NCBI RefSeq assembly: GCF_030063305.1
Contig: NZ_JASISV010000002.1
Coordinates: forward strand, 868,001-932,000
Length of the DNA stretch: 64,000 nucleotides
Direction: 5' to 3'
DNA from: Salinibacterium sp. G-O1
GTDB lineage: Bacteria > Actinomycetota > Actinomycetes > Actinomycetales > Microbacteriaceae
A model generated the notes under the pieces. It searched no databases, was not told the DNA's origin, and worked only from the letters and a program-made list of their open reading frames with translations. Below, piece after piece: positions 16,944 to 56,628 of this stretch; within the stretch, counting starts at the first letter, position 1, and each line of letters opens with the position of its first letter. Both the position numbers and the translations under genes were made by a program.

Positions 16944-17513
16944 GTGACATACGCCTTCATCCGTCATGGCCAGACCGACTGGAACCGCGACGGGCTCTTT
17001 CAGGGCTCGAGCGACATCCCGCTCAATGATGTCGGCCGCCAGCAGGCCCTGGATGCCGCGGCCACCCTGCGCGATTCCCCCTGGACGGCGATCGTGTCGT
17101 CGGGGCTGCAGCGCGCGCGCGAAACCGCCGAGATCATCGCCGGGGAGCTGGGCATCGAGCTCGGCCCCGCCTACCCGAAGCTCGCCGAGCGCGACTACGG
17201 AGAGCTTGAGGGCACCTCAGCCGACGCAGCCATCGCACGCTGGCCGTCCCGTGAATACCCTGGCGCCGAAAACATCGCGTCGGTGGTCGAACGTGGCCGC
17301 GCCGGAGTGGCGCGCATCGCCGCCGACTACCCCGGACAGGACGTCGTCATCGTGTGCCACGGCACGATCATCCGGTACACGCTCTCTGATTTCGCCGGGC
17401 GCAAGGTCGATGGGATCCTCAACGGTTCGATCTCGACGTTCAGGCTCGACGGAGATCACTGGAACGTGCTGAGCGTCAACGGGCAGGCGCTCGCCGTCGC
17501 CGATCGAATCTAG
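16944..17513 (+). CDS. Histidine phosphatase family protein (phosphoglycerate mutase-like)
   Basis: A 189-residue branch-1 histidine phosphatase. The phosphohistidine motif is FIRHGQTDWNRDG near the N-terminus, with the second catalytic histidine in VIVCHGTIIRY and the conserved glutamate in LAERDYGELEG. Similar proteins dephosphorylate small phosphate esters, and a true cofactor-dependent mutase would be longer. GTG at 16944 has GGGGAG five bases upstream. It converges with smc and the two stop codons overlap on a CTAG. Confidence 0.88.
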   Translation: MTYAFIRHGQTDWNRDGLFQGSSDIPLNDVGRQQALDAAATLRDSPWTAIVSSGLQRARETAEIIAGELGIELGPAYPKLAERDYGELEGTSADAAIARWPSREYPGAENIASVVERGRAGVARIAADYPGQDVVIVCHGTIIRYTLSDFAGRKVDGILNGSISTFRLDGDHWNVLSVNGQALAVADRI

Positions 17514-20500
17514 CTCGCCGCAGCAGCCACCCGCTGGCCGACGACAGCACTGATGCCGTCGGCGCGCATGCTCACGCCGTACAGGGCGTCCGCGATCTCC
17601 ATGGTGCGCTTCTGGTGCGTGATGACGATGAGCTGGGATGTCTCGCGCAGGTCCTGGAAGATGGTGAGCAGCCGCCCGAGGTTGGCGTCGTCGAGCGCAG
17701 CCTCGACCTCATCCATGATGTAGAACGGGCTGGGGCGCGCCTTGAAGATCGCGATCAGCAGCGCCACAGCGGCCAGGGATCGCTCGCCACCGCTGAGCAG
17801 CGACAGTCGCTCGATCTTCTTGCCCGCCGGCTTCACGCTGACCTCGATGCCGGTCGTGAGCAGGTTGTCTGGATCGGTCAGCTGGATGCTGCCGGTGCCA
17901 CCGGGGAACAGGATCGGGAAGACCTCGTTGAAGGCGACGCGGGTGTCTTCGAACGCTGAGCCGAAGATGTCCTGCATCTTCTCGTCGATCTCGTCGATGA
18001 TCGTGAGCAGGTCTTTGCGGGTGTTCGTGAGGTCGGTGAGCTGCTCGGTGAGGAACTTGTGGCGCTGCTCCAGCGCCTCGAACTCCTCGAGCGCGAGCGG
18101 GTTCACGCGGCCGAGCTGAGCGAGCTTGCGTTCGGCCGCAGCCAGGCGCGCCTGCTGCTCGATGCGCACGAACGGCTTCCCGGGCGCCGCTTCCTCCTCC
18201 GCCACCACCTTCCGAAATGACGGAGTTGAGGGTGAATCCGAGTCGGCATCGCCCGGATTCCCGGGCGCGGCATCCGCAGGTTCCGTCATTTCGGAAGGTG
18301 CGGAGGGCGCGTTGTCGTCCGGGATGGGCACCTGCGGGCCGTACTCGGCGACGAGCACGTCCTCGACGAGCCCGAGCTCCTCGCCGGAGCGTTCGAGCAG
18401 TGTCGACAGGTGCAGCTTCTTCTCGTAGATCTGCATCTCGAGTCCGTGCACGTTCTCGCTGATCGCGAACAACCGCTCGCGAAGCGAACCCTCCTCGCGA
18501 CGCAGCTTCGCCAGTTCCTCGTTCTGGGCCGATCGTTCTGACTCGCGCGCGGCGAGCTGAACTCGCGCCTCCGATACCGAACGGTCTGCGGCGTCGAGCA
18601 CGGTGGGAAGCGCCGCGATGACCTCAGTGGCCGCCGCGACCTGCCGTTGCCGGATGACCGTAAGTCGCGCCTGCTCCTCGGCGGCGGCGCGCTCGGCGAT
18701 GAGCTGCGCGGCGAGAGCCTCTGCCCTGGCCCGCTCGGCCCTGACCCGCTCCCGGATAGTCTCCAGCTGGATGCGCAGCTCAAGCTCTGCGGCACGCGCC
18801 GCCTCCACCTCGCCGAGCACGCCCTCGCGGGCCGAAACGTCGAGCATGGGCCGCGGGGTGGATGCGTAGTCGTCGTGGGCGGCGCTCGCGCGCTCCACGG
18901 CGGATTCGGCATCCTGAACCTTCTCGGCTGTCACCTCGAGGCCGTAAGAGAGTCGATCCCACTCGGCCTGGGCAGCATCGAGCTGGATGCGGAACCGGGC
19001 CAGCTGCTCGGACTGCGCGGCGAGGGCGGCGTCGTGCTCTCGCAGGGTGGTGAGTGCCGTGGATGCCTCGTTTTTGGCGGTCTCGAGCGCGCCCCGCCGC
19101 TCGGCCAGGGCGAATCTCGTGCGCTCGATCTGGGTGGTGACAACCTCAAGTTTCGCGGCTGCAGCATCACGCTCGGCGACAAGCTCGAGCCTCGAACGCT
19201 TCGCTCCGGAACCGCCCCGCAGCACGTATTGCGTGAGGACGTCACCCGCGCGCGTGACGACCGTGGCATCTGTGATGTCGGCGAAGGCGGCGCGCGCCAC
19301 CTCCAGGTCGTCGGCGACGTAGACGCCGGCCAGCAGCCCGAGCACACCGTTCGGTGCCGTCACAACCTCGACGGCGGCACGCACCCCCGGCAGCTTTCGT
19401 GGCGGCGCTGCGTCCGCGGTCGCCGCGAGCACCACCTCGACACGACCGAAGTCTTTGGCTGCGGAATGCTCGAGAGCCGAGAATGCGCTCTCCGCATCAT
19501 CCGCCAGCACGGCGTCGGCGAGGGAGCCGAGAGCCGCGGCGATGGCCGCCTCGAACCCGGGCTCGATCTTGACATGTTCGGCGACGAGGCCGCGGATGCC
19601 GGCCAACTTCGCGCCAACCAGCGCACTGGAGCCGTCTTTCTGATCGACGGCGAGCGACAGCGCCGAGTTGCGTGCGGCGAGCGCATCGCGTTCCCGCTCG
19701 GCCGCGTGCAGCTCGTCGCGGAGGGTCTCGATCTCGCCCTGGGTCTGTGCCACCAGCGATTCGGCTGCCTCATACGCGGCGTCGAGCGAGCCGTCACCCT
19801 CCTCGGCCGTCGTTGCCGTCGATTCGAGGGCGTCGAACTGGGTGCGCGAGGCATCCCGACGCTGCTCGGCCTGTTCGAGGGCGTTCTGCTGACGCAGCAG
19901 CTCACCGCGGGCGGCGGCCAGGGTGGAGCGTGCGACATCCACACGGGACGCGAGCCCGGCGAGCTCGAGTTCGTGGCGCGAAACGAGTGCGCTTTGGGCC
20001 GAGATCTCTTCATCCAGCGAATCCAGGGACGCCTTTGCCGTGGCTGACGCTGCCGCGGCGATGCCCACCGCTACCTCAGCATCCGCGACACCGGCAGCAA
20101 GCCGCTTCGCCTCATCCTGAGCCTCGACCACCGAAGCCTGGCTGACGGAGTTGCCCAGCGACGGCCCATCGCCCTGCTGGCCAAGCAGCGCCAGCCGCTG
20201 GTTCGCGAGCGTGTACAGGTTTCGCAGACGCTCCTGCGCAGACTCGAGGCCGAAAGCGGTGCGGCGGGCGAGGTCCACGGCGTCGCCGACCTGCGCGTGC
20301 TCCAGCCGGCTCTCGCGCAGCTTCGCCTGGTCGAGCTGCTCCTGCAGCACGATGCGCTCGGTCTTGCGCTCAGACTCACTGCGGCTGAAGTCGGTGATCG
20401 CGGCGCGAAGCTCGACCACCTCGTCCGCCAGAAGCCTGGCTCGGGCATCCCGAACGATCGAAGCAATGGATGCCGCCTGCTTCGCGATCTCCGCCTGATG

Positions 20501-21118
20501 CCCCAGTGGCTTCAGCTGGCGCCTGATCTCGCCGGCGAGGTCAGAAAGGCGCAGGAGGTTGGCCTGCATGGCGTCGAGCTTGCGAATGGTCTTCTCTTTG
20601 CGGCGGCGATGCTTCAGGATGCCGGCGGCCTCCTCGATGAAACCGCGCCGTTCCTCGGGGCTGGCCCGCAGCACAGCGTCGAGCTGGCCCTGGCCGACGA
20701 TGACGTGCATCTCGCGGCCGAGGCCGCTGTCGCTCAGCAGCTCCTGCACGTCGAGCAGGCGGCACTGGTCGCCGTTGATCGCGTACTCGCTTCCGCCATT
20801 ACGGAACAGCGTGCGGCTGATCGTGACCTCGGTGTACTCGATCGGCAGTGCGCCGTCGGAGTTGTCGATGGTGAGGATGACCTCGGCCCGACCGAGCGGG
20901 CCTTTCGTCGCCGTCCCCGCGAAGATGACGTCCTCCATCTTGCCGCCGCGGAGGGTCTTGGCGCCCTGCTCCCCCATGACCCAAGCGAGGGCATCCACCA
21001 CATTGGACTTGCCGGAGCCGTTCGGGCCCACCACACACGTCACGCCCTGTTCGAACGCGAAAGTGGTCGGCTGCGCGAAAGACTTGAACCCCTTCAGGGT
21101 CAGGCTCTTCAGGTACAA
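17510..21118 (-). CDS. smc: Chromosome segregation ATPase SMC
   Basis: Condensin subunit that extrudes and aligns DNA loops at the origin. The 1202 residues show the N-terminal head with Walker A GPNGSGKSNVVDAL, coiled coils (about 170-500 and 650-1010), a hinge (about 500-640), then the C-terminal signature LSGGERSLAAVALL and Walker B FYIMDEVEAALDD. The start codon is TTG at 21118 with AAAGGG upstream. Unusually, residues about 940-971 just before the C-terminal head are Pro/Ser/Asp-rich and encoded by a 95-bp palindromic repeat element; a coiled-coil break is expected there. Confidence 0.95.
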   Translation of the reverse strand: MYLKSLTLKGFKSFAQPTTFAFEQGVTCVVGPNGSGKSNVVDALAWVMGEQGAKTLRGGKMEDVIFAGTATKGPLGRAEVILTIDNSDGALPIEYTEVTISRTLFRNGGSEYAINGDQCRLLDVQELLSDSGLGREMHVIVGQGQLDAVLRASPEERRGFIEEAAGILKHRRRKEKTIRKLDAMQANLLRLSDLAGEIRRQLKPLGHQAEIAKQAASIASIVRDARARLLADEVVELRAAITDFSRSESERKTERIVLQEQLDQAKLRESRLEHAQVGDAVDLARRTAFGLESAQERLRNLYTLANQRLALLGQQGDGPSLGNSVSQASVVEAQDEAKRLAAGVADAEVAVGIAAAASATAKASLDSLDEEISAQSALVSRHELELAGLASRVDVARSTLAAARGELLRQQNALEQAEQRRDASRTQFDALESTATTAEEGDGSLDAAYEAAESLVAQTQGEIETLRDELHAAERERDALAARNSALSLAVDQKDGSSALVGAKLAGIRGLVAEHVKIEPGFEAAIAAALGSLADAVLADDAESAFSALEHSAAKDFGRVEVVLAATADAAPPRKLPGVRAAVEVVTAPNGVLGLLAGVYVADDLEVARAAFADITDATVVTRAGDVLTQYVLRGGSGAKRSRLELVAERDAAAAKLEVVTTQIERTRFALAERRGALETAKNEASTALTTLREHDAALAAQSEQLARFRIQLDAAQAEWDRLSYGLEVTAEKVQDAESAVERASAAHDDYASTPRPMLDVSAREGVLGEVEAARAAELELRIQLETIRERVRAERARAEALAAQLIAERAAAEEQARLTVIRQRQVAAATEVIAALPTVLDAADRSVSEARVQLAARESERSAQNEELAKLRREEGSLRERLFAISENVHGLEMQIYEKKLHLSTLLERSGEELGLVEDVLVAEYGPQVPIPDDNAPSAPSEMTEPADAAPGNPGDADSDSPSTPSFRKVVAEEEAAPGKPFVRIEQQARLAAAERKLAQLGRVNPLALEEFEALEQRHKFLTEQLTDLTNTRKDLLTIIDEIDEKMQDIFGSAFEDTRVAFNEVFPILFPGGTGSIQLTDPDNLLTTGIEVSVKPAGKKIERLSLLSGGERSLAAVALLIAIFKARPSPFYIMDEVEAALDDANLGRLLTIFQDLRETSQLIVITHQKRTMEIADALYGVSMRADGISAVVGQRVAAAAS
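18206..18300. repeat. Palindromic repeat element, copy 1 (in frame inside smc)
   Basis: Perfect 19-bp inverted repeats CACCTTCCGAAATGACGGA (18206-18224 and, reversed, 18282-18300) enclose a 57-bp GC-rich core. Through smc the arms encode PSEMTE and PSFRKV. Its size, arm layout and the CCTTCSGAAAT core match the copies at 21228 and 29581. The arm sequence has diverged at the inner end (GACGGA rather than TCAGGA). Confidence 0.8.
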
Positions 21119-21227
21119 GACGCCGCCCTTTCTGTGGTCTCGGATGCTGGGTATACGGTACCGGAACGCCGGCCGCTCCCCGTGCAGGCGGGGCCGACGC
21201 CGCCAGCAGATGCTCCACGCCGTCCAA

Positions 21228-21327
21228 CCTTCGGAAATTCAGGAAATGCGGTGCGGCAGACGAGATCGCCGCGGTGCTTCCGGCAGTCACTGCGCGGTGC
21301 GCGGCGGACTTCCTGAATTTCCGAAGG
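21228..21327. repeat. Palindromic repeat element, copy 2 (between smc and GH42 gene)
   Basis: Perfect 18-bp inverted repeats CCTTCGGAAATTCAGGAA at 21228-21245 and 21310-21327 enclose a 64-bp GC-rich core. It lies in the 396-bp intergenic region between the divergent smc and beta-galactosidase genes, upstream of both promoters. The rest of that region holds the smc ribosome binding site and the beta-galactosidase promoter and operators. Confidence 0.85.
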
Positions 21328-21404
21328 CGGTCAAACGCGGCTGACATCGTGCGGTGTAAACGGTTGCCTGCGGGGAGCACGGGACAACGATATTCCCGGC
21401 TTGC

Positions 21405-21432
21405 TTGACAGGGTTGAGAAGCGCTCGATAAT
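21405..21432 (+). promoter_or_regulatory. Strong sigma-70-type promoter for the beta-galactosidase gene
   Basis: Consensus -35 TTGACA at 21405-21410, a 16-bp spacer and -10 GATAAT at 21427-21432. It is by far the best vegetative promoter match seen in the window. The first operator starts at its -10 box. Confidence 0.75.
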
Positions 21433-21449
21433 CTGTGCACGTTCCCAGA
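21432..21449 (+). promoter_or_regulatory. LacI-type operator O1
   Basis: Imperfect palindrome TGTGCACGTTCCCA (21434-21447) overlapping the -10 box and start site. It is a near copy of the downstream site at 21477. Confidence 0.65.
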
Positions 21450-21476
21450 CATTGGCGTCGAACCCCCTTTTTCGCC

Positions 21477-21500
21477 AATTCTGTGCACGTTCACAGAATT
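21477..21500 (+). promoter_or_regulatory. LacI-type operator O2
   Basis: A 24-base palindrome with perfect 9-bp arms, AATTCTGTG and CACAGAATT, around CACGTT. The core TGTGCACGTTCACA is the form bound by many actinobacterial LacI-family sugar repressors. It ends 14 bases before the GTG start and just ahead of the ribosome binding site AAAGGAG. Confidence 0.7.
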
Positions 21501-21514
21501 GCAAAGGAGCCTTC

Positions 21515-23539
21515 GTGAACATCCCCCGCACCGGACCCGTCACGTCGGTCAGTTCCCTCACCAACGGGATGGTATTTGGCTGCGACTACAACCCGGAGCA
21601 GTGGGGTTCCGACGTCTGGCGGGATGACGTCCGGTTGATGCGCGACGCGGGAATCGGCCTGGTCGCGCTTAACATCTTCGGTTGGTCGAACATTCAGCCC
21701 CGAGAGGGCGAGTTCGATTTCGCGGACCTCGACGAGATCATCGATCTTCTCCACGCGAATAATATCCGCGTGAACCTCGGAACCGGCACCGCGTCGGCCC
21801 CGCCGTGGCTGAGCACGGCGCATCCCGAGATCCTTCCCATGGCGGAAGACGGCACGACGCGGTATCCGGGCGGACGGCAGGCATGGTGCCCGAGTTCGCC
21901 AGTCTTCCGGGAGTACGCCCTCCACCTCGTCGAGGCCGTGGCATCCCGCTATGGCGCGCATCCCGCCGTTGCGCTGTGGCACGTCTCGAACGAGCTCGGG
22001 TGCCACAACGCTCTCTGCTACGACGACGACAGTGCTGTCGCGTTTCGCACGTGGCTCCGTCATCGCTATGACACCATCGACGCCCTCAACGAGGCGTGGG
22101 GCACCTCCTTCTGGAGCCAGAGGTACGGCGCCTGGGACGAGATTCTCCCGCCCCGCGCAGCCCTTTCGTTGCGCAATCCCGCCCAGCGCCTCGATTTTCA
22201 GCGATTCAGTTCAGACGAACTTCTCGACTACTACCGCAGCGAGTGCGCGGTGATCCGCCGCCACAGCGCCGCCCCGGTGACCACCAACTTCATGGTGACC
22301 GCCCACATTCGAAACCTCGACTACTGGACGTGGGTCGACGACGTCGATCTCGTTGCGAATGACCACTACCTCGACCATCGACTGCCCAACCCGACCGCCG
22401 AGTTGTCGTTCGCCGCCGATCTGACACGCGGGCTGGCCAAAGGCGAGCCCTGGCTGCTCATGGAGAGCAGTGCTGGAGCAGTCAACTGGCAGCCACACAA
22501 CCTGCCGAAGCAGCCCGGCGAGATGACCCGCAACTCGGTGTCACATATCGCGCGTGGTGCCGACGGCGTGTGTTTCTTCCAATGGCGCGCGTCGCCACAG
22601 GGTGCGGAAAAATTCCACTCCGCTCTCATCCCACACGCGGGAACGGATAGCGAGGTCTGGCGGGAAACTGTCGCGCTTGGGCGCCTGATGACTGACCTTG
22701 CCGAAGTCGCCGGCACCCGCGTCGAGTCTCACGTCGCGATCCTCTTCAGTTGGGAGGCGTGGTGGGCAGCCGACGGCGAAGCTCGTCCCAGCCAGGCGGT
22801 TAACTATCTTCAGCAGGTTCATGCGGTGTACAGCGCACTGCGAGAGCTCGGTGTCACCGTCGACGTCGTGTCGCCCTCAGCTTCACTCGACGGCTACCGA
22901 CTGGCAGTGGTCCCGAGCCTCCACCTCGTCTCTGACGATGATGCGACGCGACTCACGTCGTGGGTCGAGGCTGGCGGGCACGCTGTCGTCACCTTCAACA
23001 GCGGCATCGTCGATGACTGCGACCGCGTCCGCCTTGGCGGCTATCCGGGCGCGTTCCGGGACATGCTCGGTGTGAGGGTTGAGGAATTCGTGCCGGTCCT
23101 CCCAGGCGACGTCGTCCATCTCGACAGCGGAGCGACCGCTGGGCTCTGGACCGAGCGCCTCACACTGACCACGGCCGACGCGATCTCGCGGTACACCGAC
23201 GGCCCCGTGCCCGGGCTGCCAGCCGTGACTCGCAACATGTTTGGTGCCGGCGAGGCACGCTACATCGCCACAGCCCTCGACGAGACCGCGCTGCGTGAGC
23301 AGTTTCGCGTGGCGCTCGTGGAGGCGAATGTCGCGATTCGTGCGCTCGGTGGTTCGGGCGCAGTGGAGGTCGTTCGGCGGGCGTCGGCTGATCGCTCGTA
23401 CGTGTTTGTGATCAACAACTCGAGCGAGGAGGTCACGATCCCCGTCGTGGGGCATGACCTCGTCACCAAGGTGGACATTTCGCAATTCCTCCGTGTGCCG
23501 GCAGGCGCGGCGCGAATCGTCCGGGAGACAGCGGCATGA
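21515..23539 (+). CDS. Beta-galactosidase, glycoside hydrolase family 42
   Basis: Retaining beta-galactosidase that splits beta-galactosides and galacto-oligosaccharides; no signal peptide, so cytoplasmic. The 674 residues comprise a TIM barrel beginning GCDYNPEQW, the acid/base glutamate in WHVSNELGCH and the nucleophile in WLLMESSAGAVNW. A trimerisation domain follows (VAILFSWEAWWA). GTG at 21515 has AAAGGAG five bases upstream. Preceded by two LacI-type operators, so it should be repressed without its sugar. No transporter or LacI gene lies beside it. Confidence 0.93.
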   Translation: MNIPRTGPVTSVSSLTNGMVFGCDYNPEQWGSDVWRDDVRLMRDAGIGLVALNIFGWSNIQPREGEFDFADLDEIIDLLHANNIRVNLGTGTASAPPWLSTAHPEILPMAEDGTTRYPGGRQAWCPSSPVFREYALHLVEAVASRYGAHPAVALWHVSNELGCHNALCYDDDSAVAFRTWLRHRYDTIDALNEAWGTSFWSQRYGAWDEILPPRAALSLRNPAQRLDFQRFSSDELLDYYRSECAVIRRHSAAPVTTNFMVTAHIRNLDYWTWVDDVDLVANDHYLDHRLPNPTAELSFAADLTRGLAKGEPWLLMESSAGAVNWQPHNLPKQPGEMTRNSVSHIARGADGVCFFQWRASPQGAEKFHSALIPHAGTDSEVWRETVALGRLMTDLAEVAGTRVESHVAILFSWEAWWAADGEARPSQAVNYLQQVHAVYSALRELGVTVDVVSPSASLDGYRLAVVPSLHLVSDDDATRLTSWVEAGGHAVVTFNSGIVDDCDRVRLGGYPGAFRDMLGVRVEEFVPVLPGDVVHLDSGATAGLWTERLTLTTADAISRYTDGPVPGLPAVTRNMFGAGEARYIATALDETALREQFRVALVEANVAIRALGGSGAVEVVRRASADRSYVFVINNSSEEVTIPVVGHDLVTKVDISQFLRVPAGAARIVRETAA

Positions 23540-23581
23540 ACGCGCCCACCACCCTCCTCATCAGGATTCCCCTGATCACCC

Positions 23582-23602
23582 CCGCGGTCACCGTGACCGC
23601 GG
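23582..23602. other. Perfect 21-bp palindrome between GH42 and esterase genes
   Basis: CCGCGGTCAC-C-GTGACCGCGG, with 10-bp arms around a single base, 43 bases after the beta-galactosidase stop. It may end that transcript or bind a regulator of the esterase gene; no T-tract follows. Confidence 0.5.
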
Positions 23603-23662
23603 TAGCACATCGGTCTGCGTCGTCCGTTATCGATGCACTACATGGAAGGAAGTACGTGTCGC

Positions 23663-26140
23663 ATGAATGATCATCAGAATATCCGGATACGACGATCCCG
23701 AAAGATGCTCGCGCTGGCGCTCAGCGCGCTGGTGGCATCCGCGGGTTTGGTCAGCGTGGCCGCGCCAGCTGCCGCCGACAATCCTGTCAGCATCAACGTC
23801 GACCTTGAGGGAACATGGAAGTTCATCAAGGGAGACAACCCCGCGTACGCGACCCCCGCGTTCGACGACAGCGCCTGGCTGGACCTCACCGTCCCGGAGG
23901 ACGGCGCGCAGTGGGCCTCCTACAACGGCTACGGCTGGTACCGGCTCAAGTTCACCCTTCCGACCGAGGCTGCAGGAACCAACCTGGTCGCATCGCTCGG
24001 CTTCATTGACGACGCCGACGAGGCATACCTCAACGGCGTGAAGATCGGCAGCTCTGGTCGATTCTCACCCGCCGACAGCCAGTGGTTCGAGAAGCGCCTG
24101 TACACCGTGCCCGGGAACGTTCCGGTCTTTGGCGGCGAAAACGTGATCGCCATCAAGGTTCAGGACCAAAGTGGTGGTGGCGGAATCTACAGGGGCCCGC
24201 TCGCCATCTACTCCAAGGACCAGGTGAGGCAGAACGTCTACGAGATCCCAGGGGCGCGCGTGTCAGCCTCGGTCGAGGCACAGGTGCAAGCGGTGCTCGA
24301 TGTTCAGAAGGCCGCGCTCGCCGCGGGCGACGTGAACGGTTACCTGGCGACCCTCGGCTCGAGCTACGTTCACGACGGCAGGGACGCCGATCGCCGAGCT
24401 CGCGAGCTCACCACGTGGATGGCCGCGTCCGGTGGCACACTCACCCTGAGTGACGGGGAGGTCGAGGTGGTCCAGGATGGCAACGGCAACCTCGTCGTCG
24501 ACACCAACCGATCGATCACCGGCACCAAGAACGGCGCTCCGTTCGAATTCCAGCCGACCGCTCAGACCTTCCTCCAGTTCGACCCCAGCACACTGCTCGA
24601 GGTCGGCAACCACTCCAGGTTCTTCCGCGAGAACGTCGAGTCAGTTGTCGAGGGAAACAAGCTGCGCGAGTTCGTCACGTACCTTCCCCCGTCGTACTTT
24701 GACGAGCCGAACCGCCAGTACCCGGTGGTGTACATGCTGCACGGCATCAACGGCGGAAGCCGCGAATGGGAGCCGCGCGACATGGACGACAAGCTGGATG
24801 CACTGTGGGCCGGTGGCCTCGCCGAGACGATCGTGATCATGCCCGACGGCGAATCGCTGTGGTACGTGGACTCGACGGCCGTGAAGTGGCGGACCATGTT
24901 CTACACCGAGATGATGCCCCTGGTGGATGCTGAGTACCGCACACTCGCGGACCCCAGCTTCCGCGGGCTCAGCGGTGTCTCCATGGGAGGCTTCGGCGCC
25001 TGGTCGATCGGTCTCGAGAGCCCAGACAAGTTCTCGTCGATCGCGTCCCACATTGGAGCTATCGGCTCCACCCAGGGTGGCAAGCCGCGCCCGTACGACA
25101 AGGTCAACACCATGACGACGGAGGAGCTCAGTCACTACGACTTCTTCTTCGACGCATGCGAGTTTGATGAGTACTCATTCGACAACGCCGCACGCACGAT
25201 GGCCACCCGCCTGACTGCGAAGAACGTTGACTTCACGTGGGCCGTGTATCCGACAGGCACTCACAACGACGCCTGCTGGGTGCCGCACCTGGTCGACTCG
25301 TTTGGGGTTCACTCGACGCACTTCCGTGACAGGGGCCTTCAAGAGGACTACGTCGCTCCGGTCATCACGATTGACGATGGTGACGCCGAAGCAACGTCGT
25401 TCGGCTGGTACAACGCGCCAGTCGCCCTGACGGTGAACGTCACCGACGAGACGGATGCCGCCCCCACGGTCGAGTACTCGCTCGATGGTGGGTCGTGGAC
25501 TCCGTACGTCGATGCCGTGACCGTCGGAGAGGGAGAACACACCCTCTCGGTGCGCGCGACAGACGCCGCGGGCAACCAGTCCGAGGCAGCCGTCACGACG
25601 AAGGTCGATCTCGGCGCCCCTGTGTCGAGTGCCGTGGTGAGCGGATACAGCCGCACAGTGGTTCTGGACGCCACGGACGCGCTGAGCGGCATCGCCTCCA
25701 TCGAGTACAAGATCGGTTCCGGAAACTGGACGGTCTACTCCGCCGGCTTCACGCTGGGTAACGGCGCCACGACGGTCACGTTCCGCGCGACCGACAAGGC
25801 GGGCAATGTCGGGGTCGCCAACACTGTGGCCGTTCCCGCATTCGCCAGCCTCGAGAAGAGCAAGGTGAAAACCAAGCTCGCGAAAAACAACATCTCGGTT
25901 TCCGAGGTGGGTGTCGTCGAGATCACCGTCAAGTCGGATCTGGATGCCGCTGCGGTGGGATCGGTGACCGTCAAGGTCGGCAGCCAGGTGTTGCCAGCCA
26001 GCCAGTTGGTGAACGGTGCGACGGTCGTCACACTGCCAAGCCTCCCCGTTGGTACCCACACGATCACGGTGACATACGACGCTTCGTCGTCGCTCACCCT
26101 GCTCCCGAGCGAAGACACGATCAAGCTCAAGGTCAAGTAG
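23663..26140 (+). CDS. Secreted multidomain esterase (PF00756-type) with sugar-binding and Ig-like modules
   Basis: An 825-residue exported protein. A signal peptide (about 1-38, ending APAAADN) leads into a beta-sandwich resembling the N-terminal domain of GH2 or sialate esterases (LEGTWKFIKGD to PLAIYSK, about 45-200). An NTF2/SnoaL-like segment follows (205-310). Next is an alpha/beta-hydrolase esterase (VVYMLHGINGGSREW) with nucleophile S440 in GLSGVSMGGFGAW and a GTHNDACW histidine. Two OmpL47-like repeats (EYSLDGGSWTPY, EYKIGSGNWTVY) and an Ig-like domain close it. No LPXTG anchor is seen. Probably deacylates carbohydrate esters or polymers outside the cell; substrate unknown. ATG at 23663 has GGAAGGAAG ten bases upstream. 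Confidence 0.85.
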   Translation: MNDHQNIRIRRSRKMLALALSALVASAGLVSVAAPAAADNPVSINVDLEGTWKFIKGDNPAYATPAFDDSAWLDLTVPEDGAQWASYNGYGWYRLKFTLPTEAAGTNLVASLGFIDDADEAYLNGVKIGSSGRFSPADSQWFEKRLYTVPGNVPVFGGENVIAIKVQDQSGGGGIYRGPLAIYSKDQVRQNVYEIPGARVSASVEAQVQAVLDVQKAALAAGDVNGYLATLGSSYVHDGRDADRRARELTTWMAASGGTLTLSDGEVEVVQDGNGNLVVDTNRSITGTKNGAPFEFQPTAQTFLQFDPSTLLEVGNHSRFFRENVESVVEGNKLREFVTYLPPSYFDEPNRQYPVVYMLHGINGGSREWEPRDMDDKLDALWAGGLAETIVIMPDGESLWYVDSTAVKWRTMFYTEMMPLVDAEYRTLADPSFRGLSGVSMGGFGAWSIGLESPDKFSSIASHIGAIGSTQGGKPRPYDKVNTMTTEELSHYDFFFDACEFDEYSFDNAARTMATRLTAKNVDFTWAVYPTGTHNDACWVPHLVDSFGVHSTHFRDRGLQEDYVAPVITIDDGDAEATSFGWYNAPVALTVNVTDETDAAPTVEYSLDGGSWTPYVDAVTVGEGEHTLSVRATDAAGNQSEAAVTTKVDLGAPVSSAVVSGYSRTVVLDATDALSGIASIEYKIGSGNWTVYSAGFTLGNGATTVTFRATDKAGNVGVANTVAVPAFASLEKSKVKTKLAKNNISVSEVGVVEITVKSDLDAAAVGSVTVKVGSQVLPASQLVNGATVVTLPSLPVGTHTITVTYDASSSLTLLPSEDTIKLKVK

Positions 26141-26153
26141 GCCAACCCTGAGA

Positions 26154-26197
26154 GCGCGGGTCGCGGCTCTGCTTACGGGCAGAGTCGCGGCCCGCGC
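26154..26197 (+). terminator. Terminator after the esterase gene
   Basis: A 19-bp GC-rich stem (GCGCGGGTCGCGGCTCTGC pairing with its near-complement, two G-U pairs) with a 6-base loop, starting 14 bases after the stop codon. ATTCGTTTGT follows. Confidence 0.75.
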
Positions 26198-26332
26198 ATT
26201 CGTTTGTGGCCGGTCGGGCAGTCCGAACCGTCGCGGGGCACATTTCGGTCACGGTCTGTCGGAACGCGGTGCCGCGGTAGTAATCTGGTCGGCTGCCTTC
26301 CGCCGCATCCAGCCGTGAGGAGAACGACCGCC

Positions 26333-27403
26333 ATGACCGCCTTCACCATCGACGACGTGACGATCCCGGACAACATTTCGGCCACCGACGCGAAGGACTT
26401 CATCGACGCCGTCGAGGTCGGCAACACCGTCGAGGCGACCGGCTACGGCACGACGGATCTCAACTACGAGCCAGTTGAAGAACTGCCGCGTTTTCACGAC
26501 CCTCACCAGCCGTCCCGGATGCTCGTCGCCCGGCTCGGCGGCCGCATCGTCGGCCGTGGGATCTACGAGACGCAGGCCGGGGATCAGGCCGACTCCGCGT
26601 GGATCATCGCCGAGGTGCTGCCCGAATTCCGCCGGCAGGGAATCGGCACGGCGCTGTCTGACACGCTCGAGGCGATCGCCGCGTCCGAGGGCAAGAAGAA
26701 GGCCCTTGTCTTCACACCGCTCCCGTCGTTGTCCCCGCACCAGCTGCCGTCGCCGACGGGGTTCGGATCGGTCGACGCCGACCACGCCGATACCAAATTT
26801 CTGCTGTCGCGCGGCTATCGGCTGGAACAGATCGAGCGCGCGAGCAGGCTCACCCTTCCCGTAGATGGGCTTGCCGCTCTCGTGGCCGATGCCGAACGCA
26901 GGAGCGGCGCGGAGTATCTGACGCACTGCTGGGTGGGCCGCACCCCCGAGCGCTGGCTGGAAGGCATCGCTCACCTGTCCACCCGGATGAGCACGGATGC
27001 CCCCACGGCCGGCCTTGAGGAACCAGAAGACGTCTGGACCGTTGAGCGTGTCGTCGAGGCCGACGACCGCCACGAGCGGCTGAATCCGCGAACCTATGTC
27101 GTGGCCGCCGTCGAGCACCTCCCGAGCGCCCGCCTGGTCGGATTCACGGTGCTGTCCGTTCCGCCGCAGGTCGGCAGGGCCGCCGACCAGTATGCGACCC
27201 TCGTGGTTCGGGAGCATCGCGGGCACAGGCTCGGCATGCTGCTGAAGGTCGCGAATCTCGCCCACCTCGAACGAGTTGCGCCGGGGCATCCATCGGTCAT
27301 CACCTTCAACGCCGAGGAGAACCGCCACATGCTCGACGTCAACGAGGCAGTCGGGTTCGTGCCGATCGCGAGCGAAAGCGCCTGGCGCAAAGATCTCGGA
27401 TGA
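26333..27403 (+). CDS. Double-domain GNAT N-acetyltransferase
   Basis: A 356-residue protein with two GNAT folds, like mycothiol synthase and other actinobacterial two-domain acetyltransferases. The first domain has the acetyl-CoA loop EVLPEFRRQGIGTAL (about 95-110). The second has VVREHRGHRLGMLLK (about 290-305) followed by FNAEENRHMLDVNEAVGF. Substrate unknown; mycothiol synthase is possible, but the sequence between domains looks different from what I would expect for MshD. ATG at 26333 has GAGGAGA upstream. It is a single gene between a terminator and a leaderless promoter. Confidence 0.8.
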   Translation: MTAFTIDDVTIPDNISATDAKDFIDAVEVGNTVEATGYGTTDLNYEPVEELPRFHDPHQPSRMLVARLGGRIVGRGIYETQAGDQADSAWIIAEVLPEFRRQGIGTALSDTLEAIAASEGKKKALVFTPLPSLSPHQLPSPTGFGSVDADHADTKFLLSRGYRLEQIERASRLTLPVDGLAALVADAERRSGAEYLTHCWVGRTPERWLEGIAHLSTRMSTDAPTAGLEEPEDVWTVERVVEADDRHERLNPRTYVVAAVEHLPSARLVGFTVLSVPPQVGRAADQYATLVVREHRGHRLGMLLKVANLAHLERVAPGHPSVITFNAEENRHMLDVNEAVGFVPIASESAWRKDLG

Positions 27404-27426
27404 CCGTCACCGCGCGCGCGGTTAGC

Positions 27427-27432
27427 TAGGGT
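27427..27432 (+). promoter_or_regulatory. -10 element of a probable leaderless promoter (DUF4279-like gene)
   Basis: TAGGGT followed by exactly six bases and GTG at 27439; no ribosome binding site. Confidence 0.5.
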
Positions 27433-27438
27433 TGTCGC

Positions 27439-27906
27439 GTGGTCATCGACGGAAAAGCGAGTCTCTCGATCAAGAGCCTCACGCACACGGCAGCGGCCGT
27501 GACAAAGATCCTCGGCCTCGAGCCGACCGCCACGGCGGAACTGGGCGATCCTGTCGGCCGCGTTCGGCCGGGCTCCGACGGAAAGCCGTCAATGCGCGAG
27601 CGCACCCATTCGATCTGGGTGCTCGACTCCCCCGAGACCCTGTCGTCTGAGGAGTCCGACTTCTCCAGCGTGCACGGGCTCATCGACACCCTTCAGACCA
27701 AGCGCAAGGCCCTCGAAAAGCTGCGCGAGCACTACTTCGTCGAGATCGCCTGGAACGGCTACTCCGACCGGATGCAGGCCGGATTCCTCATCCCCTCAGA
27801 CCTGCTCGCGGCGATGGGTGCTCTCGGCATCGACTTCCACGGCCAGGTGTTCTTCAAGCAGACGGGCACGGGCGAGGCCCCGTCCGAGGCCCTGTCAGAC
27901 GACTAG
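27439..27906 (+). CDS. DUF4279-like hypothetical protein
   Basis: A 155-residue cytoplasmic protein that resembles the DUF4279 family: an ACT-like N-terminal half (SLTHTAAAVTKILGLEPTAT), a conserved WVLDSPE segment, and FVEIAWNGYSDRMQAGFLI with LGIDFHGQVFF near the end. No function is established. GTG start. Its stop codon coincides with the first base triplet of a 53-bp copy of the mutM 3' end, meaning that it probably once converged directly with mutM. Confidence 0.6.
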   Translation: MVIDGKASLSIKSLTHTAAAVTKILGLEPTATAELGDPVGRVRPGSDGKPSMRERTHSIWVLDSPETLSSEESDFSSVHGLIDTLQTKRKALEKLREHYFVEIAWNGYSDRMQAGFLIPSDLLAAMGALGIDFHGQVFFKQTGTGEAPSEALSDD

Positions 27907-27955
27907 CGCACCCTCTGGCAGTGGGCGCAGAAGTGCGACCCACGGTTCATGAATG
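27903..27955. repeat. 53-bp direct repeat, left copy (duplicated mutM 3' end)
   Basis: Identical over 53 bases to 28928-28980, where it encodes the last residues of MutM. The two copies are 1025 bp apart and flank the lipoprotein island. Confidence 0.9.
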
Positions 27956-28030
27956 CGGAGTCTCGATCGAGACGGCCGACGGGGTCGCCGTCGGTGACGA
28001 CATCGACGCTCTCTCAGCGCGAAATCCCGC
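27956..28030 (+). pseudogene. Fragment of a lipoprotein paralogue
   Basis: In frame with 27921 this stretch reads GVSIETADGVAVGDDIDAL, closely similar to GGVIVETTDGVVVGDEIAKV in the intact lipoprotein at 28245. It lacks any N-terminal part and abuts the duplicated mutM fragment, so it is best read as the remnant of a decayed paralogue. The rest of 28031-28121 shows no recognisable coding signal. Confidence 0.6.
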
Positions 28031-28109
28031 CAAAACGGGCAGCTACGTCAACACCGCGACTGGTGTATTGCAGTCCCGTAACGAGCCGCGCTACGGTCGC
28101 AGGCAGCGA

Positions 28110-28115
28110 TACAGT
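28110..28115 (+). promoter_or_regulatory. -10 element upstream of the lipoprotein leader ORF
   Basis: TACAGT followed by exactly six bases and ATG at 28122, the leaderless geometry seen elsewhere in the window. Confidence 0.4.
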
Positions 28116-28121
28116 CAGGCC

Positions 28122-28244
28122 ATGACAAGAATGCGACACTCCCTCGTTTTCGCCGGTTCGCGACGCGGCGAGGCAGCTCTGCCAACGGTGAGCCGCTGGG
28201 TCACTGTTACCCCAGCGCCCAACGCCGACCGACGGGACGCGTAG
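28122..28244 (+). CDS. Short leader ORF coupled to the lipoprotein gene
   Basis: A 40-residue reading frame (MTRMRHSLVFAGSRRGEAAL at its start, Arg-rich) with a leaderless-type -10 box. Its TAG stop touches the ATG of the lipoprotein gene. It could be a leader peptide that delivers ribosomes to the next start, or the decayed signal-peptide region of the lost paralogue. No similarity recognised. Confidence 0.3.
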   Translation: MTRMRHSLVFAGSRRGEAALPTVSRWVTVTPAPNADRRDA

Positions 28245-28931
28245 ATGTCGCGTTTTCGACTGCCCCTCGCGCTCTCGGCGATCTTGTGTGCGCTCGTACT
28301 GGTGGCGTGTTCGGCCTCTCTGGATCCCACATCAACGGCGAGCCCGAACAGTCAGGTCACTCCATCACCCTCGGCGGAGCAAGAGCCCGCAACGGCTGCA
28401 AAACTGACGCTGTCGTCGACCTCATTCACGATCGTCAATTCCGATGGAAGCAGAGGAGCCACATTCAGCTTCTTCGATTCTGTAGATCCCGTGGTTGCCG
28501 CTCTCACCACGGCCTTCGGATTCGAGCCTGTTCTCACGGATGTACCTGATGTCTCTGAGGGATATCCGTACAGATTCTTCGACTGGGGAAAATTCCGTCT
28601 TCACGATGATTCTGCTCAGGCCGAGGCCATAGGGCCGTTGATGTTCAGGTTTTCGGTTGCGACGACAGAGCCTCAGACCGGCGGCGTGATTGTTGAGACG
28701 ACGGACGGCGTGGTTGTGGGAGACGAAATTGCCAAGGTTTCACAGTTGTATCCGGATGTGACGCCTGAACTTCTTTCGGACGGACAGGAGTACTACAGCT
28801 TCGAGACCGATGTCGTTTTCGCCTCCGATGCCGACGGAACCCAAGTCCCATACCGGGTTTTGGTGCGAGCAATTGCCGGCCAGGAGGTTGATTTGATCTT
28901 TGCTCCCGATGGAGGACCTGGTCGTTTCTAG
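28245..28931 (+). CDS. Hypothetical secreted lipoprotein
   Basis: A 228-residue predicted lipoprotein with signal peptide and lipobox LVACS (cysteine near residue 22), then a Thr/Ser/Pro-rich linker (23-50) and a globular domain of unknown family. The domain contains a GGVIVETTDGVVVGDEI segment, which is repeated in the remnant upstream. Base composition looks less GC-rich than the flanking core genes. Its stop codon is formed by the CTAG that starts the right copy of the 53-bp repeat, so the gene 3' end is exactly at the duplication boundary. Probably acquired horizontally. Confidence 0.7.
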   Translation: MSRFRLPLALSAILCALVLVACSASLDPTSTASPNSQVTPSPSAEQEPATAAKLTLSSTSFTIVNSDGSRGATFSFFDSVDPVVAALTTAFGFEPVLTDVPDVSEGYPYRFFDWGKFRLHDDSAQAEAIGPLMFRFSVATTEPQTGGVIVETTDGVVVGDEIAKVSQLYPDVTPELLSDGQEYYSFETDVVFASDADGTQVPYRVLVRAIAGQEVDLIFAPDGGPGRF

Positions 28932-28980
28932 CGCACCCTCTGGCAGTGGGCGCAGAAGTGCGACCCACGGTTCATGAATG
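28928..28980. repeat. 53-bp direct repeat, right copy (authentic mutM 3' end)
   Basis: Perfect copy of 27903-27955. Here it is the functional end of mutM, including the stop codon and the last zinc-finger residues. Confidence 0.9.
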
Positions 28981-29950
28981 ATTCGCGGATGATCGGCCGA
29001 CCACATCGCGGGCATGACTCCCCCTGCCGACCGTACGCGTTCAGCGAGTGGGCGAAGTAGCCGGACTGCCCGTTCACATTCAGGTACTGCGCGTCGAAGC
29101 TCGTTCCTCCCTCGGCGAGTGCTTTGCGCAGCACGAGGCGCACCTCGGCGAGCAGCAGTTTCGCGCGGGCTCGGCTCAGTGTCCCGGTCGGCTGGTCGTA
29201 GTGCACCCGCGCGGCCCACAGCGCCTCATCCGCATAGATGTTGCCGATGCCGCTGATCAGGGTCTGGTCGAGCATCGCCCGCTTGACCGTGGTGTTCTTG
29301 CGGGCGAGCCGCGTCAGAAACAGGGCGTCGTTGAACCGCTCATCCAGAGGATCTCGCGCGATGTGCACCACCTTCGATGGCACAGAGTCCCCGCCATCCA
29401 CGGAGGGCACGAGACCGTCAATGGCCATGGAGCCGAAGATGCGCTGGTCGACAAAGTTGAGCCGTAGCGGCCCGTGCTCGGGATGGCGCAGGTCGACGCG
29501 GATTCTCGTGCGCGCGTCATCCGTCGCCGTGTCCCGCAGCAGCACCTGGCCGCTCATGCCGAGGTGAGTCACGAGCGCCTCCGTTGGAAATTCAGGAGAT
29601 CCGCTCACGCCCGGCGACGGCGGTGCCGCGAACGCGCGGCCCTGCCCGGGTGCAACGGGAGCCGCGTCCGGGATTTCCTGAATTTCCGAAGGGGGTGGGG
29701 ACGACCGCGGTGGGGGCGGGAGTGCCAGGGGCGACTGCGGCGGGGGCGACAGCGGGATCCACATGAACTTGCCGCGACGCAGGGGCGCGAGCATGGTGCG
29801 TCCGGTGAGGCGGTCGATGAAGTCCTCGGCGGGGCCATCGTGGCGGCGCAGGGAGCGCTCATCGAAGACGGTGACGGATTCCACGCGCGCGCCGGTGACG
29901 GCGGGCTCGAGTCCCGCGCGCACCACCTCGACTTCGGGCAGCTCGGGCAC
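28928..29950 (-). CDS. mutM: Formamidopyrimidine-DNA glycosylase, with Pro-rich insertion
   Basis: Bifunctional glycosylase/AP lyase that removes 8-oxoguanine. Catalytic P2 and E3 (PELPEVEVV), K61 in RRGKFMW, the H2TH region (LISGIGNIYADEALW) and the zinc finger CPRCGRP ... FCAHCQ are intact. The protein is 340 residues, roughly 50 longer than usual. The excess is a Pro/Ser/Ala-rich insert at about 69-123 between the MWIPLS strand and EALVTHLGMSGQ, much of it encoded by a palindromic repeat. GTG start at 29950, two bases after the rnc stop. Confidence 0.94.
   Translation of the reverse strand: MPELPEVEVVRAGLEPAVTGARVESVTVFDERSLRRHDGPAEDFIDRLTGRTMLAPLRRGKFMWIPLSPPPQSPLALPPPPRSSPPPSEIQEIPDAAPVAPGQGRAFAAPPSPGVSGSPEFPTEALVTHLGMSGQVLLRDTATDDARTRIRVDLRHPEHGPLRLNFVDQRIFGSMAIDGLVPSVDGGDSVPSKVVHIARDPLDERFNDALFLTRLARKNTTVKRAMLDQTLISGIGNIYADEALWAARVHYDQPTGTLSRARAKLLLAEVRLVLRKALAEGGTSFDAQYLNVNGQSGYFAHSLNAYGRQGESCPRCGRPIIRESFMNRGSHFCAHCQRVR
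29581..29692. repeat. Palindromic repeat element, copy 3 (in frame inside mutM)
   Basis: Inverted repeats of 22 bp: GGATTTCCTGAATTTCCGAA-GG at 29671-29692 and its imperfect complement at 29581-29602 (three mismatches). They enclose a 68-bp GC-rich core. Through mutM the arms encode PSEIQEIP and GSPEFP. The arm shares GGAAATTCAGGA with copy 2. Confidence 0.8.
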
Positions 29951-29952
29951 GG

Positions 29953-30642
29953 TCAGGTGGCGGGTGTCTGCAGCAGGGTCCAGGCCTGGAGGGCCGCGGC
30001 CATCTCCGCGTGCTTCTTGCTGGAGCCATCCCCGGCGGCGATCGGGTCTGTGCCCAGCAGCACCGTCGCGTGAAAACGCTTCGAATGATCGGGGCCGCTG
30101 TCAGAGACCTGGTAGCTCGGAAGACCTCGTCCGAGTCTGGCCGCCAGCTCCTGCAGGCTGGTCTTCGGATCCATGGATGCGCCGAACCGGTCAGGGTTCT
30201 CCAGCAGCGGGCGGATCAGACGCAGCACGAGAGCGGTTGCGGCCTCTCCCCCGAGGTCGAGGTAGGTGGCCCCGATGAGAGCCTCGAGAGTGTCGGCGAG
30301 GATCGACGACTTGTCGCGACCTCCGGTGAGCTCCTCTCCGCGACCGAGACGGATGTACGCCCCGAGGCCGATCGAGCGCGCGACTTCGGCGAGGGCGACG
30401 CTGGACACCAGGCTCGCGCGGCGCTTGGCAAGCTCACCCTCGTCCAGCTGCGGATTCTCCGTGTAGAGCATGACCGTGACGGCCTGGCCCAGGATCGAGT
30501 CGCCGAGGAACTCGAGGCGCTCGTTGTGGGCGAGCCCGCCGTTCTCGTACGCGAAAGACCTGTGGGTCAGCGCTAGTTCAAAGAGTCCGGGCGCGACAAT
30601 GACGCCGAGTACGGACGATAGTTCGTCAGTGTTCGGCGTCAT
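29953..30642 (-). CDS. rnc: Ribonuclease III
   Basis: Double-strand-specific endoribonuclease for rRNA and mRNA processing. The 229 residues contain the signature HNERLEFLGDSILG (about 39-52), the second catalytic acidic motif DTLEALIGATYLDLGG and a C-terminal dsRNA-binding domain (DPKTSLQELAARLG, GDGSSKKHAEMAAA). ATG at 30642 lies 33 bases after rpmF. It forms the conserved DUF177-rpmF-rnc-mutM order. Confidence 0.95.
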   Translation of the reverse strand: MTPNTDELSSVLGVIVAPGLFELALTHRSFAYENGGLAHNERLEFLGDSILGQAVTVMLYTENPQLDEGELAKRRASLVSSVALAEVARSIGLGAYIRLGRGEELTGGRDKSSILADTLEALIGATYLDLGGEAATALVLRLIRPLLENPDRFGASMDPKTSLQELAARLGRGLPSYQVSDSGPDHSKRFHATVLLGTDPIAAGDGSSKKHAEMAAALQAWTLLQTPAT

Positions 30643-30675
30643 GATCGGCTACGCGTAGTGAAGCAGACCGATTCG

Positions 30676-30879
30676 TTATACGTCGGCGACCTTGCGGCCC
30701 TTGTACTCCATGTACAGGGCGGTGCCGGTCGAGTCTTCAACGACCTTCGCGCGGTGCGGGAGGCTGTAAACGGTCTTGCCGTTCTCGATGGTCTTGACAA
30801 GCGTGGGGGCGGTGGCCTTCCACTGGGCGCGGCGCATGCGGGTCGATGCCCGCGACATTTTGCGCTTCGGTACAGCCAT
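30676..30879 (-). CDS. rpmF: 50S ribosomal protein L32 (bL32)
   Basis: A 67-residue ribosomal protein starting [20 protein letters not shown], typical of L32. The zinc-binding cysteines found in some L32 forms are absent, so this is the Zn-independent type. It starts three bases after the DUF177 stop and is coupled to it. Confidence 0.95.
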
Positions 30880-30881
30880 GG

Positions 30882-31433
30882 CTAACTCTTCTCTTCGTCT
30901 GTGGTGATGGTGTCGTTCAGGTTGTCGAGCCCGGCAAGCGCCGCCCATCGTGGATCGACGGGAGCCTCATGCTCATGACCCGGGTTGTCCAGAAGCCGCA
31001 CCCCACACTCTGGGCACAGGCCGAGGCAATCTTCCTGACAGACCGGTTGGAACGGCAGTGACAGCACTACCGCATCCCTGACCACTGGTTCCAGGTCGAC
31101 GTGGTCGTCGTGAACCATATAGTCAAAAGCTTCGTCAAAAGAATACGCGAAAAGCTCCTGGAATTCGACCCGAACCGGAAGCTGCACGTCTGTGAGGCAC
31201 CGAACGCACTCTCCTTCGGCCGTAGAACGCAGTTTTCCGGAGATAAGAATGCCGTCGTGCAGCGACTCAAAGCGGGCGTCGATGTGCATCTTCGCGCCGG
31301 TTTTCACACCGATGACGGCATTTCCGAAGCCTTCTGGCACGTCGAAGTCGAGGTCTTTCTCGCGCATCTCGCCCGGGCGGTGCATGAGGTCGTAGACCGC
31401 AACGGTGTATGGGGTCTGAATGAGATGTGACAC
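30882..31433 (-). CDS. DUF177/YceD family protein
   Basis: A 183-residue YceD-like protein, almost always found before rpmF and implicated in 23S rRNA biogenesis. Cysteines in GECVRCL and in [14 protein letters not shown] suggest zinc binding. GTG at 31433 was chosen because [15 protein letters not shown] matches the family opening and because TAGAAT lies eight bases upstream. The much longer open frame upstream is antisense to the aminotransferase and not coding. Confidence 0.9.
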
Positions 31434-56572: not shown

Positions 56573-56592
56573 GACCCACCAGTAAAACCATG

Positions 56593-56622
56593 GGAGCCCC
56601 TCACCATCCGGTGAGGGGCTCC
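56593..56622. terminator. Bidirectional terminator between rbsB and the PTE-family gene
   Basis: A perfect 13-bp stem GGAGCCCCTCACC-ATCC-GGTGAGGGGCTCC between two convergent genes, 20 bases after the rbsB stop. Confidence 0.85.
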
Positions 56623-56628
56623 TCTGGG

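Follow-up and report, generated by a model that had tools for sequence, protein, structure and literature searches.

Dispersed palindromes and the nuclease gene that they flank in Salinibacterium sp. G-O1 look like an undescribed kind of mobile DNA of Microbacteriaceae

Palindromic inserts lie within two conserved protein genes of Salinibacterium sp. G-O1, smc and mutM, and a similar palindrome lies between smc and a neighbouring gene. The question raised by this locus is what these palindromes are and how they came to be placed inside such genes. Here, we address this question starting from a 64,000-nt stretch of the genome (assembly GCF_030063305.1, contig NZ_JASISV010000002.1, positions 868,001–932,000; referred to as 'the window', with positions numbered from its first letter) and extend the analysis to related genomes. 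The window's own genome (3.14 Mb) is designated G000 and its closest relative G319; other G labels denote further genomes compared.

Together with a nuclease gene that is found between them, the palindromes look like a kind of mobile DNA that has not been described. We consider it likely that they are non-autonomous elements of ~85–110 bp, dispersed and kept in trans by a resident homing-type nuclease. That the elements are mobile is strongly suggested by their distribution, whereas binding, cutting, and the copying route are what we infer.

The elements, their hosts and their families

All three elements announced by the original prediction were found again where it had placed them. The first (18206–18300) lies inside smc (17510–21118, minus strand) and consists of a 57-bp core between perfect 19-nt arms, the left arm CACCTTCCGAAATGACGGA (18206–18224, plus strand) being 100% complementary to the right arm (18282–18300, minus strand), which is its reverse complement. 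The second (21228–21327) is intergenic, between smc and a beta-galactosidase-like open reading frame (ORF), and has an 18-nt perfect arm. The third (29581–29692) lies inside mutM (28928–29950, minus strand); its left arm is degenerate, with CCGTTGG where CCTTCGG is expected, and its gap of 80 bp corresponds to the base class of spacing plus two helical steps. Perfect arms in two of the three copies had been predicted correctly, but the copies do not form a single three-copy family. The smc copy belongs to family A, with arms TTCCGAAATGACGGA, and the intergenic and mutM copies carry the arms of family B (TTCGGAAATTCAGGA), namely CCTTCGGAAATTCAGGA; A and B are two families with the same plan. 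Nor is the core shared, as had been supposed: core sequence differs among the copies, and only core length is conserved.

The in-frame position of two copies was confirmed. The Smc reading frame stays open across the A element, which encodes PSEMTE...PSFRK, and the MutM frame reads through the B element, which encodes PSEIQE...PEFPTE. A third in-frame host gene, located in G000 outside the window, encodes an FGGY carbohydrate kinase; the B element that it carries is spanned by the Pfam domain of the kinase. The proposal that protein linkers serve as tolerated landing sites is supported; the Smc insert follows VLVAEYGP in a linker that varies in length among 27 Smc proteins of the genus.

Other copies elsewhere in the genome, likewise anticipated by the original prediction, were recovered by arm search, which brings the total in G000 to ~50 elements in three arm families (A, B, and C). 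The word CCTTCSGAAAT has 35 exact matches in G000, compared with 0 for the reversed control pattern. When two mismatches are allowed in this 11-base word, 18 occurrences are found within the window versus 18.6 expected, i.e. the chance level; the signal resides in the exact arm word and its pairing, not in loose matches. Arm pairing in the G000 loci that were read yielded 25 A/B elements, 13 of A and 12 of B, the latter including a doubtful B call at C3:284. Not in this count are three further B elements, at C1:225900, C2:591213, and C1:1292932, each of which has a degenerate arm and was left unpaired by the script. Family C, with arms CAAATGAAGGAG, has 46 exact matches in G000 (control, 0) and 26 elements. 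The full A/B palindrome pattern matched 40 stretches in the named genome collection, 35 of them titled Microbacteriaceae or with the names of genera of that family; the remaining five have merely 5–12 matching arm bases and appear chance-like.

Tandem arrangements were seen at two places. At G316:C27:48954–49105, three additional arm-like copies come after an A element in steps of 22 bp, which resembles tandem amplification of arm ends, and L034:2686–2922 holds a tandem pair of A elements 151 bp apart with near-equal cores, i.e. a local duplication.

A nuclease gene between palindromes

The gene associated with the elements encodes an AbiEi-like winged helix followed by a Vsr/EDxHD-type nuclease domain (Pfam MTES_1575/DUF559). 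Each family's palindromes flank their own nuclease gene on both sides: B elements enclose the B nucleases, that of G000 being encoded at C2:580845–581687, and A elements enclose the A nucleases. A and B nucleases are ~29–33% identical to each other, and further paralogues in the genus are found with other arms (e.g. CAAATGAAGGAG, CGAAATGCAGGAG, CGAAAACGCAGGAGAT, and TGAAGAACTCAGGCAG). The unit measures ~1.05 kb, and the gene stands between complete palindromes, not between single ends. By eye, a palindrome is visible both 5' and 3' of the nuclease gene in 14 printed loci (13 distinct, L075 being the same as L132).

A two-sided test was applied to a sample of 55 loci (50 of 77 nuclease matches, with five more from a single genome outside the genus), of which one, L189 (C1:32607), fell below the score limit and was dropped. 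At 37 of the 54 loci tested, an arm word of length at least 8 is common to an upstream and a downstream inverted repeat, versus 0 of 2000 random positions of 850 bp drawn from the window. The same strict test, run with windows of 450 instead of 400 bases on 25 loci, each from a different genome (15 other genera in all), was passed by 13. One flank or both carry an inverted repeat at 25/25 of these other-genera loci, but also at 604/2000 random positions. Some of these results count against the explanation that we favour: the strict test failed at 17/54 and at 12/25 loci, respectively. Palindromes were also searched for around the dropped fragment of the window's own genome, a partial nuclease homologue, and none were found. 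Judged by sequence, we nevertheless regard the association between nuclease gene and palindromes as established.

The active-site positions E, D, H, and D, which we take to be catalytic, are kept in 63, 63, 60, and 63 of 63 nucleases. The fold resembles those of I-Bth0305I and Vsr (VIA-align table of Foldseek hits), although no Foldseek match to the nuclease reached an E value of 0.001 or better, the best being I-Bth0305I at 1.4e-3. With MTES_1575 (PF18741), the first member scored 28.9 bits versus a curated cut-off of 38.2; by E value alone, 13/13 members match at ≤0.01 (best, 2.1e-9). A profile of 13 nucleases found a match at E 1e-30 in 168/249 genomes of the family and 63/85 genera; among 246 genomes sampled from the phylum, only two matched at E 1e-25, the window's own genome and another genome of the same family (at most nine candidates were scored per genome in both searches). 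The catalytic-domain fold and the E, D, H, and D residues are shared with EDxHD homing endonucleases (I-Bth0305I) and Vsr; unlike in those systems, the nuclease gene lies here between palindromes that are also dispersed without it. Similarly, the protein differs from AbiEi antitoxins in that its C-terminal part is a nuclease. The AbiEi protein of Streptococcus agalactiae binds inverted repeats cooperatively, according to an excerpt of the report describing it (PMC7319586). At locus L013 (274–1995, minus strand), the frame of the B nuclease has no stop across the downstream palindrome, and part of the element may therefore encode the C-terminus of the protein.

Arms and nucleases correspond to each other. 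A fixed rule gave an arm type for 64/82 loci (18 were dropped), and among the 63 distinct nucleases compared, arm difference falls as nuclease identity rises (Spearman −0.51; 0/2000 permutations as low). The arm difference declines from 2.7 of 8 positions at 25–35% nuclease identity to 0.6 at 45–65%. Action in trans was assessed in 27 genomes of the same genus, which are related to each other, so that the Fisher values are descriptive. Perfect B arms occur far from the nuclease gene in 13/14 genomes with a B nuclease (in four of the genomes, G303, G307, G082, and G309, a sole perfect B arm is distant from it), and B arms occur in 1/13 genomes without a B nuclease, that case being a mutM remnant (Fisher 1e-5 for B). 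A arms are found away from the gene in 4/5 genomes with an A nuclease, and A arms occur in 2/22 genomes without (Fisher 0.004); in G312, which has an A nuclease, the sole exact A arms flank the gene. Action in trans is harder to reconcile with G000 itself, which is among these two genomes with A arms but without the nuclease: it keeps 13 perfect-armed A elements yet has no match to an A nuclease. The A locus of G000 (C1:661704–664551; L292 and L293) consists of a short stretch between the flanking genes, where G319 has a whole A unit. Unit loss can therefore leave elements behind, and arms can persist without the nuclease unit for a time.

The presence of an AbiEi-like winged helix invites the suggestion that the protein represses its own gene by binding cooperatively to the phased inverted arms, with the dispersed copies acting as further operators or as sites of titration and some other task falling to the nuclease domain. 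Such a regulon would have to include copies inside smc, mutM, and the FGGY kinase gene, and a second element 3' of the nuclease gene; moreover, copies vary between related genomes, and nearly all members retain the active-site positions. We consider this explanation unlikely.

Arm spacing and cores

Spacing was defined as the distance from the inner GG to the inner CC, pairing each left arm with the nearest right arm; the bands described here had been seen before they were tested. Across seven arm types, 202 unique elements have spacings of 42 (1 element), 46–47 (4), 55–60 (133), 68–70 (51), 78–80 (10), and 89–90 bp (3), so that 201 of them are close to 47, 58, 69, 80, or 90 bp; none of the 202 falls at any other spacing within 30–110 bp (48–54, 61–67, 71–77, and 81–88 bp being empty). 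A line through the modes of four types (148 elements) has a slope of 10.52 bp per step, and the centre-to-centre distance between arms is ~7 turns in most elements and 8, 9, or 10 in others. When, to reduce the effect of relatedness, each of 101 locus clusters (six types) contributes a single value, 85 clusters are at the base spacing and 16 are at +11 to +13, +23, or +33; 14 of these 16 lie at most 2 bp from a multiple of 10.5 (P 0.001). An earlier count without the cluster correction had placed 29/30 in bands (P 4e-12). Among the matches listed in whole-genome arm lists, 62/64 pairs are inside bands.

Because the step is ~10.5 bp, recognition of the arms probably takes place on double-stranded DNA and from one face of the helix. 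Both arms would probably be bound together on that face, with the intervening DNA looped. Several observations do not fit this reading well: a free fit of the period on two types gives 10.95, which is between B-DNA and A-form; two pairs are out of band, at 83 (G319) and 93 bp (G314); and one element stands at 42 bp. In the element of the 83-bp pair, right arms stand at three distances (58, 83, and 108 bp).

Conservation of arms and cores was compared at 12 orthologous sites of G000 and G319, two of which are B unit flanks. Arms agree at 31–37 of 38 positions, and core identity is 52–73% versus 57–66% for shuffled cores. Core lengths are equal at 6/12 sites and within one base at 11/12, a 64/64 pair included, and the exceptional pair measures 54 versus 74. 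The mutM element of G319, for instance, has near-identical arms, including the odd left end, and a different core. One genome pair at 94% identity shows few point changes in the core, and therefore we interpret cores as drifting while arms and spacing are kept. Two points weigh here against the explanation that we favour: orthologous sites were located via the arms, which biases the comparison toward conserved arms, and the core is mostly conserved in the single pair compared at 94% identity. Core exchange (cassette swapping) had been considered in view of the unrelated orthologous cores, and it was set aside given the ordinary point drift in the 94% pair.

Complementary arms could also indicate hairpins acting as RNA or single-stranded DNA, e.g. 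terminators or mRNA stabilisers. At some arm-adjacent positions outside the arm motif, the left and right sides of B and C elements do correspond, as a hairpin would give, and this counts against binding as double-stranded DNA; family structure could be an alternative source of this agreement. No such agreement beyond the arms is found in A, and little in the type of Lacisediminihabitans profunda (two of ten outer positions, z 2.1 and 2.8). Core length is stepped by about one helical turn, and window positions 17000–31000 have no Rfam match at the gathering level. We therefore hold a hairpin function to be highly improbable.

Presence, absence and relation to known systems

Presence/absence polymorphism, as the original prediction expected of a mobile element, is found at both protein-coding sites in the window: an A or B element is present in 3/27 Smc proteins, and mutM is mostly empty (16/20). 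The Smc linker holds an A element in G000 and G319, a B element in G316, and neither peptide in the other 24 proteins; with both families represented at one linker, these are taken as separate insertions. The mutM gene was matched in 27 genomes, and 20 loci were read: the B element is present in G000 and G319 and half of one in G315, a further locus has another repeat, and 16 have none. The inserts are, in other words, missing from most relatives and the copies are many, which is not the picture of inserts conserved everywhere and lacking further copies. The same linker in MutM of G312 (L093) holds a different in-frame insert, an LPHPSV-type peptide repeat.

Elsewhere, the FGGY kinase gene of G319 has a degenerate B element at the matching place (at the DNA level only), and neither the A element at C1:730873 nor the intergenic copy of the window (looked for after the smc start) is at the matching place in G319. 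For three G319-specific elements (C2:167410, C2:198944, and C4:192880), the G000 stretches guessed from synteny did not match. Elements of L. profunda have cores 79–84% alike, with unrelated flanks, on different contigs, and C elements of G000 form four doublets 157–184 bp apart with cores 87–96% alike. The flanks of the 25 A/B elements of G000 are 0.51 C on the left and 0.47 G on the right, versus 0.33 and 0.32 in the window. Mobility is strongly suggested overall; what weighs against it is that no insertion was caught in the act, and this lack of directly seen movement is the largest gap. Inspection by eye, although not a systematic test, showed no target-site duplications (a check named in the original prediction), and no exact empty site at high identity was found.

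A domesticated host function in chromosome architecture, repair, or defence (e.g. arms marking or baiting self DNA), with dispersal being old and slow, would suit the position of the B unit after the end of glyS in several genomes (from translations), the retention of arms and spacing at orthologous sites where cores are saturated, and the presence of homologues in 168/249 family genomes. It sits poorly with the few or absent A/B arms in many genomes of the same genus (none in 10/27) and with the loss of the A unit in G000, and we think it quite unlikely to be the explanation.

The elements resemble REPIN/RAYT (REPtron) systems in being short and dispersed, in having two inverted conserved ends and a spacer whose length matters over its sequence, and in sharing their repeats with the flanks of an enzyme gene. 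As described in excerpts of two papers, GI REPINs have 71 bp between ends and a constrained spacer (PMC3116915), REPs are known inside replication and repair genes (PMC3733652, PMC3116915), and RAYTs are HUH transposases that recognise single-stranded REP DNA (PMC3733652). The system analysed here differs in having several spacings, at helical steps, and in its enzyme, a winged-helix protein with a Vsr/EDxHD-type nuclease domain and not an HUH Y1 transposase. The Y1 transposase family PF01797 has 0 matches in G000, the one genome searched (a control search matched 5/14 known genomes), and the RAYT/TnpA-REP partner sought in the original prediction is replaced by the nuclease with its AbiEi-like winged helix. 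Since RAYTs are HUH enzymes acting on single-stranded DNA and G000 has no PF01797 match, we regard the system as REPIN/RAYT-like in working and not as a member.

An ordinary REP or REPIN moved by a RAYT, or a miniature inverted-repeat transposable element (MITE) of a classical transposase, would share the overall plan of inverted conserved ends and a length-constrained spacer, and terminal inverted repeats like those of MITEs are present here. Besides the lack of a Y1 match in G000, paired elements enclose the gene of a nuclease with a different fold, and arm sequence tracks nuclease relatedness; barring a RAYT active in an ancestor, we accord this origin a very small chance.

Rickettsia palindromic elements (RPEs) are palindromic inserts placed in frame inside protein genes, as are the inserts in smc, mutM, and the FGGY kinase gene. 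To our knowledge, RPEs have no known partner enzyme, whereas here a partner enzyme and its correspondence with the arms were found. No family known to us combines dispersed palindromes and a nuclease of Vsr/EDxHD type, and no earlier description of nuclease-linked palindromes was found in the open-licence literature.

Dispersal in trans by the resident nuclease, the explanation that we favour, would proceed as follows. The nuclease gene, sitting between two palindromes of its own family, would act in trans on dispersed copies. Its AbiEi-like winged helix and Vsr/EDxHD-type domain would bind both inverted arms as double-stranded DNA and bridge them on one helix face, most often at 7 or 8 turns centre to centre, and the nuclease would cut or nick near the element ends. 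The released or copied unit would then be captured elsewhere, with a bias toward sites with a C-rich left and a G-rich right flank and toward places that tolerate extra residues. The core would be a spacer only, carried along at copying and then drifting, while arms and spacing would be kept.

On balance, we lean toward recognising a new class of mobile DNA, in which a Vsr/EDxHD-fold nuclease fused to an AbiEi-like domain would disperse its bipartite targets in trans, with lineage-specific arms set whole helical turns apart in a looped double-stranded DNA complex, and which would be widespread in Microbacteriaceae and write peptides into important proteins. If this is true, such a class would give the REPIN/RAYT plan another enzymatic solution, unrelated to the first, point to a function for the large group of unnamed DUF559/MTES_1575 nucleases, and provide a clean test bed for joint changes of specificity in an enzyme and its short repeat. 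Owing to the helical spacing rule, the mechanism can be tested in vitro, and the odd insert peptides (PSEMTE... and PSEIQE...) in conserved proteins of these bacteria would be accounted for.

Three minor observations concern the surroundings of the elements. The distance between smc and mutM is ~4 kb in G319 versus ~8 kb in the window genome; being about half, it suggests that the sugar-hydrolase stretch (window 21400–28900) may be absent in G319. Two 18-bp direct repeats TCTGTGCACGTTCNCAGA (window 21432–21449 and 21480–21497), possibly operators, lie 5' of the beta-galactosidase-like ORF. Finally, a 21-nt inverted repeat with a 4-nt loop at window 56585–56630 is perhaps a terminator.

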